A stretch of 64,000 nt of DNA from the NCBI RefSeq assembly GCF_003663845.1, contig NZ_RCCA01000001.1:3596001-3660000 (forward strand), read 5' to 3'. Shown in pieces: positions 42,587-48,682 of the stretch. The position numbers and the translations under genes were made by a program. Below the pieces are notes generated by a model. It made no database searches, had not been told where the DNA came from, and saw nothing but the letters and a program-made list of their open reading frames with translations. How positions within the stretch are numbered: the first letter of the stretch is position 1; every line of letters starts with the position of its first letter. This DNA is from Chryseobacterium sp. 7 (lineage in GTDB: Bacteria > Bacteroidota > Bacteroidia > Flavobacteriales > Weeksellaceae).

Positions 42587-42720
42587 ATATGAAAAGAGCA
42601 ATACATAAAATTTTAAAATTCAGGAGGTCTGTATCTTTTATTTTCACAGAAGCAACGATAACGGAAACATGGATTTTGTTCGGGACATTTAAATTTTCAA
42701 CAATAAAAAATAAATATATC

Positions 42721-43440
42721 ATGACAGAATTAGTATTTAAAAATGATGGCAACATAGTAACGAACTCGCTGTTGGTTGCCGATAGGTTTGAAAAGGAACA
42801 TAAGAACGTGTTAAGAGATATTGAAAATCTCGTGGCTCAAAATTCAGCCGCCAAATCTTTCTTCCAAGAAAGCTATTATGAAAACAGAGGTAAGCAATAT
42901 CCCATGTTCATAATGAACCGGGACGGCTTTAGTTTGCTTGTTATGGGTTTCACTGGTAAAAAGGCGTTGGATTTCAAATTGGAGTATATAGAAGCTTTTA
43001 ACAAGATGGAGAAGAGTTTACTGCAGCAGTCGCAATACCATGTTCCCGGATCTTTTGCCGAAGCTTTGAAACTAGCATACCAACAGGCAGAGCAGATAGA
43101 ACTACAATCTAATGAGCTTAAGAAACAAGCTCCGAAGGTTCAGTACTTTGATAACGTATTGCAGAGCGAGAGTACGTACAATACTAACCAGATAGCAAAG
43201 GAATTGGGCATGAGTGCCGTTACATTAAACCGTATGCTATGTGACATGCACGTACAGTACAAGCAGAATGGAACTTGGCTATTATACAGCAAACATCAGA
43301 ACAAAGGATATACTAAAACCAAAACCCATTCTTACACTGATACTTCCGGGAGCACAAAAACGTCAATGCAAACCGTCTGGACGGAGAAAGGAAGATTATT
43401 TATTCATGACATAATTAAAGACAACGAGAAAATAGCTTAA
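42721..43440 (+). CDS. Rha-family phage regulator with KilAC antirepressor domain
   Basis: A 239-residue protein. Residues 1-95 fit Rha (ADRFEKEHKNVLRDIENL and FIMNRDGFSLLVMGFTGKKA). Residues 150-239 fit the KilAC domain (NTNQIAKELGMSAVTLNRML and TWLLYSK). I prefer the ATG at 42,721, where the Rha domain begins. A longer frame from 42,589 adds 44 residues that look like a broken copy of the preceding DUF2693 protein. It probably counteracts the repressor or modifies host functions during induction. Confidence 0.85.
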   Translation: MTELVFKNDGNIVTNSLLVADRFEKEHKNVLRDIENLVAQNSAAKSFFQESYYENRGKQYPMFIMNRDGFSLLVMGFTGKKALDFKLEYIEAFNKMEKSLLQQSQYHVPGSFAEALKLAYQQAEQIELQSNELKKQAPKVQYFDNVLQSESTYNTNQIAKELGMSAVTLNRMLCDMHVQYKQNGTWLLYSKHQNKGYTKTKTHSYTDTSGSTKTSMQTVWTEKGRLFIHDIIKDNEKIA

Positions 43441-43468: not shown

Positions 43469-43819
43469 ATGAGCACAACAAACATACCATCGCTAACCGC
43501 AAAAGAACAGGGAATCATTAATATTATTTCAGATAGCATATTATATAATAGGATATATGATGGCATGCGTGTTATTCTTAACGCCTTTAATCCTCTCCAG
43601 TCTGATCCGTGTGACATTGAGATCAACTACAAGGGTGTTGAAAACGCTTTAATGATTATGGATATAGAAGATGAAGACTTAAAAGAAAATCTAGAGCTTT
43701 TATATGAAAAAAATATATTCAGCAGAACTCTCGAAAACGCCTACCAGCTAGCCCTTTCCATATACTTTGAATGGCTAAAGTATATCAAGGATTTCTATAT
43801 AACTAAAAAAACAGCATAA
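43469..43819 (+). CDS. Hypothetical phage protein in the antirepressor block
   Basis: A 116-residue acidic helical protein with no family I recognise. It follows the KilAC gene after 28 nt and probably shares its transcript. Its stop codon abuts the operator-like palindrome at 43,819-43,835, which separates it from the next antirepressor. Confidence 0.65.
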   Translation: MSTTNIPSLTAKEQGIINIISDSILYNRIYDGMRVILNAFNPLQSDPCDIEINYKGVENALMIMDIEDEDLKENLELLYEKNIFSRTLENAYQLALSIYFEWLKYIKDFYITKKTA

Positions 43820-43835
43820 CAACCTTTTTGGTTGT
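43819..43835. promoter_or_regulatory. CI-type operator O1
   Basis: ACAACCTTTTTGGTTGT, a perfect 6-bp palindrome with a 5-nt T spacer. It is identical to O2 at 47,079 and covers the -33 region of the promoter at 43,832-43,861. Confidence 0.65.
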
Positions 43836-43861
43836 TTATATCAACAATGTTTGTATATTTG
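43832..43861 (+). promoter_or_regulatory. Promoter of the leader RNA and AntA antirepressor
   Basis: TTG (43,832-43,834), a 19-nt spacer and TATATTTG (43,854-43,861). The -33 element lies inside operator O1. Transcription would start near 43,867, at the foot of the structured leader. Confidence 0.65.
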
Positions 43862-43863
43862 TA

Positions 43864-43976
43864 GTGTCGACTACATACAGCTAAATAGAAATATTTAACT
43901 TCATCATATAAGCCACTTTAAGGGTTACACTTTTTCAGTATGTGTGTCGACAACCCCTTATTGTGGCTTTTTTAAT
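43864..43976 (+). ncRNA. Structured leader RNA with pseudoknot topology before the antirepressor
   Basis: Two long stems interleave. Stem A pairs 43,865-43,878 with 43,938-43,952 (14 bp, one bulge, one wobble). Stem B pairs 43,910-43,924 with 43,955-43,969 (7 plus 6 bp around a 2x2 internal loop) and is followed by TTTTTT, so it is a terminator hairpin. The second arm of A lies in the loop of B. The two stems therefore either form an H-type pseudoknot or exclude each other. It may be an attenuator for the antirepressor or an independent small RNA. Confidence 0.6.
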
Positions 43977-44001
43977 TGAAATAATTTTAAACAATACATA
44001 A

Positions 44002-44637
44002 ATGAACGAACTGATTAAAATCACGGAACACAACGGTAACAAAGCCGTTTCCGCAAGAGAATTACACAGCTACTTAGAAAGTAAGCAGGATTTTTCAAAC
44101 TGGATTAAAAACAGGATTAATAAGTATGGATTTATTGAAAATCAAGACTTTCAGCGTTTCGATAAAATTATTGAAACGGGTGGACGATTGATAGAATACG
44201 CTTTAACAATCGACTGTGCTAAAGAGTTGTCAATGGTTGAGGGCAATGAAAAAGGTAAGGAGGCTAGGAAATATTTTATTGATGTGGAAAAAGCGCACAA
44301 CAATAATTTAGCTACTTTTTATAATGATCCATTCATTCAATTAAGAATGAGTCAAATTCAGCAGCAACAGCAAATCCAGGCTTTGGAATCAAAAGTCAAT
44401 ATGATCGAGGCTAAAACGACCACCAGACCAGATTATTTTTCCGTTATGGGTTATGCAATTATGAATAAGGTTACAGTTGGGTTAAGAATGGCAGCAAGTA
44501 TAGGAAAAAAAGCTTCAAGCATATGTAAGAAGAATGGTTTTCCGACAGATGAAGTTCCTGATCCAAGGTTTGGTAGAGTCAAATTATACCCAAGTAGTGT
44601 TCTTGATAAGATATTTAGCGAAACTATATTCTCATAA
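44002..44637 (+). CDS. AntA/AntB-family antirepressor
   Basis: A 211-residue protein. Residues 1-90 are the AntA domain: KAVSARELHSYLESKQDFSNW and YALTIDCAKELSMVEGNEKG. A Gln-rich coiled coil follows near residue 115, then a C-terminal domain with SVMGYAIMNKV and a DNA-binding-like helix. Proteins of this type inactivate phage repressors and trigger lytic growth. The start lies 26 nt after the T-run of the leader, so read-through of that hairpin would control it. Confidence 0.88.
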   Translation: MNELIKITEHNGNKAVSARELHSYLESKQDFSNWIKNRINKYGFIENQDFQRFDKIIETGGRLIEYALTIDCAKELSMVEGNEKGKEARKYFIDVEKAHNNNLATFYNDPFIQLRMSQIQQQQQIQALESKVNMIEAKTTTRPDYFSVMGYAIMNKVTVGLRMAASIGKKASSICKKNGFPTDEVPDPRFGRVKLYPSSVLDKIFSETIFS

Positions 44638-47071: not shown

Positions 47072-47102
47072 CAAATATACAACCTTTTTGGTTGTTTACA
47101 AA
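47072..47102 (-). promoter_or_regulatory. Early leftward phage promoter
   Basis: On the minus strand TTTG (47,102-47,099), a 19-nt spacer and TATATTTG (47,079-47,072). Operator O2 fills the spacer, so a bound repressor would block it. Confidence 0.7.
47079..47095. promoter_or_regulatory. CI-type operator O2
   Basis: ACAACCTTTTTGGTTGT, identical over all 17 positions to O1 at 43,819. It lies between the -7 and -33 elements of the early promoter. Confidence 0.7.
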
Positions 47103-47110
47103 TTTAAAAC

Positions 47111-47127
47111 ACAACTTTTACGGTTGT
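47111..47127. promoter_or_regulatory. CI-type operator O3 (imperfect)
   Basis: ACAACTTTTACGGTTGT, differing from O2 in 3 of 17 positions. Its centre is 32 bp from that of O2, three helical turns, which favours cooperative binding. Confidence 0.6.
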
Positions 47128-47931: not shown

Positions 47932-47961
47932 CAAATATATGAAAGAAAAAACAAACAACAA
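47932..47961 (-). promoter_or_regulatory. Promoter of the 47,557-47,913 gene
   Basis: On the minus strand TTG (47,961-47,959), a 19-nt spacer and TATATTTG (47,939-47,932). It overlaps the start of the repressor gene and operator O4. Confidence 0.55.
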
Positions 47962-48682
47962 CCAAAAAGGTAGTTACCTAAGAAGGTTTTTAGAATTAAA
48001 TTCAATTACACCTAAAATGGTTCAAGATGCTTTAGGCGTTTCTCAACAATATGTTTCAGCCATAATTAATGGATCTAAAAGCATAGGAAAAGGTACAGCT
48101 AAAAAATTAAATGAATTATACGGTGCTGATGAATATAAATTATTATTTGGAGAAGGATCAATGCTTAACGAGCCTGAAAAAAAAGACAATATAAAATTAG
48201 TATCTCCTGATAATATAGATAAACTACCAAGCAATAGAAAAACATTTGATACGCCAATTGAAATTCAAACTATACCTGTATATGATTCAACTGCTACACT
48301 GGGGCTTGTAGAAGTTTTTAATGGTTCTGAAACGGGAAATATATTAAGTTATATTAGTATTCCCAACCTACCAAAAAGTGACGGTGCTATTTTTATGACA
48401 GGAGATTCAATGTATCCTTTGCTAAAGTCAGGAGATATTGTTGCTTTAAAGATAATTAATAGGCTTGACATTATTTATGGTGAAATGTATTATGTTGAAT
48501 ATTTAGGAGAAGATGAATATAGTGAGTTTAAAGTAATAAAATATGTAAAGAAATCTGAATTAGGAAAAGACTATATTCAATTAGCTTCATATAATCAGCA
48601 TCATGAACCTAAAGACATTTTGCTTTCTAAAATAAAAACAATTGCAATCGTAAACGCTTCAGTAAGATATAATAGACTTTGA
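47939..48682 (+). CDS. CI-like phage repressor (Xre plus S24 domain)
   Basis: A 247-residue repressor. Residues 12-70 form an Xre HTH (MVQDALGVSQQYVSAIINGSK). Residues 120-245 form the LexA/CI S24 domain with the Ser nucleophile in MTGDSMYPLLKSGDIVAL near residue 160 and the Lys in EFKVIKYVKK near 202, so RecA-stimulated self-cleavage is possible. I see no obvious Ala-Gly cleavage site. It probably binds the four ACAACC-N5-GGTTGT sites and keeps the prophage silent. Confidence 0.9.
   Translation: MKEKTNNNQKGSYLRRFLELNSITPKMVQDALGVSQQYVSAIINGSKSIGKGTAKKLNELYGADEYKLLFGEGSMLNEPEKKDNIKLVSPDNIDKLPSNRKTFDTPIEIQTIPVYDSTATLGLVEVFNGSETGNILSYISIPNLPKSDGAIFMTGDSMYPLLKSGDIVALKIINRLDIIYGEMYYVEYLGEDEYSEFKVIKYVKKSELGKDYIQLASYNQHHEPKDILLSKIKTIAIVNASVRYNRL
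47958..47974. promoter_or_regulatory. CI-type operator O4 (imperfect)
   Basis: ACAACCAAAAAGGTAGT, an imperfect palindrome of the same type within codons 7-12 of the repressor gene. It covers the -33 element of the leftward promoter at 47,932. Confidence 0.5.

Follow-up and report, generated by a model that had tools for sequence, protein, structure and literature searches.

The window, by which we mean the whole 64,000-nucleotide stretch of Chryseobacterium sp. 7 DNA that was analysed, encodes an AntA-type antirepressor preceded by a leader (43862-44001) that fills the interval between a Bacteroidota-type promoter and the antirepressor gene. The features of this locus are as follows:

43819-43835, over the -33 region: operator-like palindrome ACAACC-TTTTT-GGTTGT, found by a pattern search of both strands and also as an inverted repeat
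43832-43861, + strand: Bacteroidota-type promoter, TTG-N19-TATATTTG, with the -7 box at 43854-43861, read in the sequence
43865-43878, + strand: A, 5' arm, TGTCGACTACATAC, at or just past the inferred transcription start
43910-43924, + strand: B5', 5' arm of the terminator hairpin, AAGCCAC-TT-TAAGGG, near-invariant among relatives
43938-43952, + strand: A', GTATGTGTGTCGACA, antisense copy of A within the loop of B, with U43945 bulged
43955-43969, + strand: B3', 3' arm of the terminator hairpin, CCCTTA-TT-GTGGCTT
43968-43973, + strand: U-tract of the predicted intrinsic terminator, T6, read in the sequence
44002-44637, + strand: antirepressor gene with an AntA domain (PF08346, E 4e-25) and a match to phrog_5817 (anti-repressor Ant, PHROGs; E 3e-38)

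The promoter was called with the Bacteroidota promoter consensus. The transcription start inferred from the promoter box (about 43866-43868) falls within the 5' arm of A, so the first 1-3 bases of this arm may remain untranscribed.

The only other copy of the ACAACC-N5-GGTTGT palindrome in the window, found by a pattern search of both strands, is located at 47079-47095, where it adjoins a second TATATTTG box that reads leftwards in the early region, about 0.8 kb from a gene for an S24/HTH repressor (47939-48682). Because the palindrome over the -33 region recurs beside this early-region box and near the repressor gene, the leader promoter and the early region are likely to share one repressor. 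The first-pass annotation had placed the leader between a repressor-controlled promoter and an antirepressor, and both the palindrome shared with the early region and the downstream AntA gene agree with this setting. The segment at 47079-47127, between divergent early genes, contains the palindrome ACAACCTTTTTGGTTGT and, 15 bases further, a variant, ACAACTTTTACGGTTGT. Just 5' of the AntA leader lies a second antirepressor-type gene (42589-43440; Rha N-terminal and KilAC C-terminal domains), and a small ORF (43469-43819) is found between the two.

Stem A consists of 14 bp, including one G-U pair and one bulge (U43945), with a predicted duplex energy of -17.3 kcal/mol, and stem B of 13 bp, interrupted by a UU/UU internal loop and followed by U6 (predicted, -21.2 kcal/mol); the G+C-containing hairpin and the U-tract make B a predicted intrinsic terminator. 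The order of the elements is A, B, A', B', with A' entirely inside the loop of B, and the interleaved arrangement reported in the first-pass annotation is thus confirmed in the sequence. Before B3' is made, the A:A' pairing is predicted with P = 0.99, and once B3' is present, the nested minimum is B. Of the two forms suggested previously, an antiterminator/terminator pair and an H-type pseudoknot, the former fits this predicted order; an isolated pseudoknot does not fit the recurrence of the layout, often with a third copy, that is described below. Termination at B may release an RNA of about 105 nt.

The leader could be an ordinary terminator of an upstream operon that happens to be complementary to a nearby sequence, given that B alone would pass for a plain intrinsic terminator and that, within the window, the match between A and A' is a 1 in 100 event: when the A arm was dinucleotide-shuffled 1000 times, 10 of the shuffled arms paired equally well with the remaining leader, and the folding z-score of the leader is -2.7. 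Far more telling than either of these values is a scan of both strands for the layout itself, namely a TAnnTTT(G/A) box followed by A and a terminator with A' in the loop. The scan yielded exactly one match in the 64-kb window, the AntA leader, no matches in 400 kb of host chromosome (20 stretches of 20 kb each) and 24 matches (about 14 distinct) in antirepressor-phage loci, compared to 0-2 in three-fold shuffled copies. The rate among these loci should not be read as that of an unbiased survey because most were picked by antirepressor protein similarity and some (L167 and part of the Riemerella set) by leader similarity. Together with the covariation presented below, these counts make chance complementarity hardly credible. 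Further copies of A in the window, sought as trans targets, were not above chance.

Four other genomes of the genus, as well as viral contigs, contain a conserved element B; the loci include records named Chryseobacterium indologenes and C. sediminis. The genes behind it differ: AntA in L005, Rha in L003, a P63C-domain protein in L002 and L028, and another protein in L004. Given this conservation in front of different genes, the leader appears to move as a module with exchangeable antirepressor genes. Stem A shows compensatory changes, G-C to A-U in L005 and U-A to C-G in the window, and an alignment of the five leaders of this type contains two compensatory pairs (16 of 500 shuffles); with five aligned sequences, the covariation of the window type, taken by itself, can be considered modest. 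The L003 leader (L003:1400-1620) is peculiar: its element B has a perfect 17-bp stem and a loop that is flipped with respect to the gene, and it is this flipped loop that the 5' arm matches (GATGTATC/GATACATC), which looks like a hairpin-mediated inversion with subsequent compensation.

Two candidate explanations of these loci were rejected. A leader peptide encoded by the loop (MYDVSTPL..., present in L002, L028 and L004) is not preserved in the window. A recombination or attachment site, suggested by the inverted loop of L003 and by an integrase adjoining the L028 copy, was dismissed because the pairing of stem A is preserved and antirepressor genes of various kinds have the element at their 5' end. 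In L002:565-1635 and L003:838-1600, the leader and a solitary antirepressor-like gene (P63C or Rha, respectively) are embedded among seemingly chromosomal genes, the neighbours being TonB-like/NUDIX and methyltransferase genes, with no phage genes visible in the 3 kb examined.

A covariance model of element B (R1) produced convincing matches in five genomes of the genus and none beyond; hence, the wider set of leaders was sought through the antirepressor proteins. No real match was obtained when collections of phages and plasmids were searched with the sequence of the window leader, and searches with the AntA or the C-terminal domain across the class gave few. The same layout with unrelated sequence was identified in a contig from an isolate genome (L092), four metagenomic contigs (L104, L116, L138 and L139), a faecal phage (L155), Tenacibaculum phage Gundel_1 (L153) and Flavobacterium phage FL-1 (L167), as well as in Riemerella phages (L152, L154, L157, L162, L163 and others); FL-1 was reached via a Riemerella leader and the other distant leaders, apart from part of the Riemerella set, by protein search. 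Upstream of the other leaders of the set, there is a TAnnTTTG or TAnnTTTA box; in the distant leaders, the box ahead of A is TAnnTTTG, and the hairpin with A' in its loop is succeeded by a T-rich tract. The downstream genes are mostly antirepressors with AntA, Rha/ANT or P63C domains; those of L004 and FL-1 received no such assignment. The layout is common, not universal, as no leader was seen directly upstream of the match in L087/L095, L089, L093, L111-L115, L137 and L146. One record in which the leader and antirepressor are the same as in Riemerella phages PT03 and PT15, OQ791282.1 (H28, H72), is labelled Shigella phage Henu10; its scores and coordinates are identical to those of PT15, and the host label may be wrong.

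The Riemerella type includes a third copy, S. In these leaders, A is complementary to A' over 15 nt, and S, which comprises the first start codon's UG and the letters after it, is complementary to A' over 12-13 nt. There are nine different A sequences, each with its complement (14-15 of 15 positions) in the hairpin loop. A loose pattern (promoter end, 103-133 nt, ACAGCACC), run on the viral contigs, 320 genomes of the family and the collected loci, separated two classes: 10 A/A' pairs, representing these nine A sequences, that match at 14-15 of 15 positions and all carry S (12/12) at the start codon, and 36 pairs that match at 3-9 of 15, the chance level. A single phage, CRP34, has two leaders with different A/A'/S triples (L160 and L162). 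Tandem leaders with different triples also occur in L110 (2187-2740), where the short ORF behind the first leader runs on into its own terminator, suggestive of a decayed copy. S is present, as one or two blocks, in L092, L104, L116, L138 and L139 as well. It was not found in the window, L002, L004, L005, Gundel_1 or FL-1, so that the window, the other Chryseobacterium-type leaders and the last two phages would represent a reduced, A-B[A'] type.

The covariation by which the first-pass annotation proposed to check the leader is there, both in the compensatory changes of the window type and in the Riemerella type, where stem A is 100% paired in eight distinct aligned sequences and 11 of the 15 pairs have changed on both sides; none of 500 shuffles reaches any of the measures, and sliding the alignment by one column destroys the pairing. 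RNA pairing would predict that the remaining deviations are compatible with G-U pairs, as observed: both deviations in the fixed 15-nt arms (L219 and L245) are, as are the 2-4 deviations in the longer helices of L116, L138 and L139, which count less as these helices were extended with G-U pairs allowed. The A:A' pairing is therefore strongly supported as judged from the sequences. It is very improbable that A, A' and S are instead repeats acting at the DNA level, as three sites for a phage-specific regulator or as recombination sites. Three copies near a promoter can resemble operators, and the loop of B is inverted in L003; however, the 15-nt sites are not internally symmetric, the middle one of the three copies is in every case inverted and located in a terminator loop, the counted deviations are of the G-U kind, and A of L003 again matches the flipped loop.

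The predicted energies differ between cognate and non-cognate partners: A:A' pairing amounts to about -17 kcal/mol in the window and -21 to -31 kcal/mol in the other leaders, and A':S to -13 to -20 kcal/mol, with A' predicted to pair more weakly, and mostly much more weakly, with a non-cognate A or S; the closest cases involve similar sequences, such as PT33 and L110a. Alternatively, the leader could switch in cis only, as a terminator/antiterminator pair or a pseudoknot whose timing is set by the speed of transcription, by ribosomes or by a ligand. The predicted order of folding, A:A' first and B later, is what such a switch would need, and A, B and A' are sufficient for it in the window type. 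It would leave unexplained, however, why A, A' and S change jointly between phages and between the two CRP34 leaders; because they do, specificity towards other RNAs fits better, and we regard an exclusively cis-acting switch as quite unlikely.

In L092, L104, L116 and L138, A is followed by an early terminator whose alternative hairpin shares bases with the 3' end of A; binding of A' to A would therefore be expected to release this terminator. The same early terminator could yield a short A RNA devoid of A', which is relevant for an alternative of opposite polarity. The antirepressor (anrP) mRNA of Gifsy-1, produced by read-through from the leader, is activated by the short leader RNA, IsrK, with alternative pairing, the reverse of the polarity in a C4-like model (PMC4825925). 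By analogy, a short leader RNA would bind A' of the read-through mRNA in trans, free the start region and turn the antirepressor on; the near identity of A and S in the S-bearing types is compatible with displacement of S from A' by A. Such activation seems unlikely, however: there is no early terminator in the window type or in the Riemerella type, where the terminated RNA carries A and A' together, and the window type has no S to free. Beyond the activating role of the short RNA, IsrK/anrP also differs from the Bacteroidota leaders in the coupling of translation through orf45 and in the phylum of the host.

Taking these lines of evidence together, we consider it probable that the leader attenuates the antirepressor as a self-complementary antisense element, similar in design to C4 of P1/P7 and CI of P4. 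A would be the 5' end of the transcript, and A' would be presented in the loop of terminator hairpin B. In a lone nascent transcript, A:A' would form before B3' is made and hinder B, such that RNA polymerase would reach the antirepressor gene. In a lysogen, leader RNA with a free A', left from termination at B, would bind A of the new transcript; the A' of that transcript would then stay unpaired, B would form, and transcription would stop. In the S-bearing types (Riemerella and several metagenomic phages), the free A' would also block translation at the start codon. The antirepressor would thus be off in lysogens, and immunity would be specific to each A/A' pair. Transcription, termination at B, trans action, the direction of control and immunity are all parts of the model that we infer. 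Its weak point is the origin of free A' from an RNA that also carries A: because intramolecular pairing of A' with A is possible, processing or an internal promoter would be needed to give a free antisense RNA.

C4 RNA is processed by RNase P and folds into three stem-loops with loops a' and b' (PMC5320573); it is listed for Proteobacteria and their phages (PMC2864571). In the P1 record, the immI locus consists, in order, of operator Oc4 (C1 operator) with the promoter, a1, b1, C4, a2, b2, icd and ant1, and we found exact complements of a1/a2 and b2 within the C4 sequence; the parts of the RNA are a closing stem, an inner hairpin and a loop with a' and b'. The Riemerella order (promoter, A, hairpin with A' in the loop, S at the start of a small ORF, AntA gene) matches that of P1 part by part, the downstream gene is an antirepressor, and the pairing sequences differ between phages, as in the heteroimmunity of P1 and P7 (PMC5320573, PMC12197685). 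A counterpart of the upstream target (a1 b1) is provided by the A:A' pairing in the window and its relatives. The downstream target (a2 b2, in the ant ribosome-binding region) has a counterpart in the Riemerella type, L092, L104, L116, L138 and L139; none was found in the window, L002, L004, L005, L153 or L167. Several features are unlike C4: the Bacteroidota antisense copy is 12-21 nt long, either uninterrupted or split into two blocks, the hairpin itself is a predicted intrinsic terminator, A is located at the 5' end of the transcript, S is at or over the start codon and is missing from the window type, and the predicted folds of the leaders seem to differ from the three-stem fold. The C4 family (RF01695) had no match in the window, L092, L104, L116, L004, L005, L028 or 11 further leaders, nor, at E<=10, in 10 whole records. 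The best reading of this comparison is that the leader would work like C4 and CI without being C4.

The P4 system (seqA - CI/seqB - seqC) likewise has upstream and downstream targets complementary to one RNA and acts by premature termination (PMC4825925), and terminator B suggests the same for the Bacteroidota leader. Unlike the latter, P4 CI controls replication genes rather than an antirepressor; its sequence was compared here via Rfam. In a quick search for helices in the P4 imm segment, seqA, seqB and seqC did not stand out. The sar RNA of P22 does not come from a leader; it is transcribed within the ant region, from the opposite strand. Like the putative free A' RNA of the S-bearing types, sar is a small RNA that blocks antirepressor translation (PMC12197685).

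A more general proposition, which we advance tentatively, is that temperate phages of Bacteroidota might widely employ a fast-diverging antisense leader RNA as an immunity determinant, with the A/A'/S sequences as a barcode for each phage and leader; the terminator hairpin would present the antisense, so that one element would both attenuate transcription and block antirepressor translation in trans. To our knowledge, little is known about how Bacteroidota prophages, such as those of gut Bacteroidales, Riemerella and Chryseobacterium, set the lysogeny decision, and no description of such a leader switch in this phylum was found in the literature searched, which included few subscription journals. 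If the proposal is correct, RNA immunity of the C4/CI type gains a counterpart with unrelated sequence in a phylum other than Proteobacteria, such immunity can be recognized by a simple layout scan, about 15 letters predict which phages are mutually immune, and the A/A' pairs are ready-made orthogonal RNA switches.

Searches of Rfam at the gathering and permissive thresholds gave nothing convincing for the leaders examined. Some of the collected records contain other candidate RNA elements. At L023:708 (- strand), the layout recurs, with TGCCAGGT and its partner GCCTGGCA in the loop of terminator AAAGACCTAC/GTAGGTCTTTTTTT and no 50-aa ORF behind it, possibly representing a stand-alone sRNA, and at L023 11000-11068, there is a copy of element B without a nearby A arm. 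A sub-threshold match to the DUF3800-VIII RNA (34.8 of 40.2 bits, E 0.01) is located about 85 bases 5' of the Riemerella leader promoter (L152:857-922, L154:767-832 and L157:494-559, - strand), and L005:3045-3124 (- strand) shows a sub-threshold match to the Bacteroidetes FopS sRNA family (41.3 of 56 bits, E 0.006).
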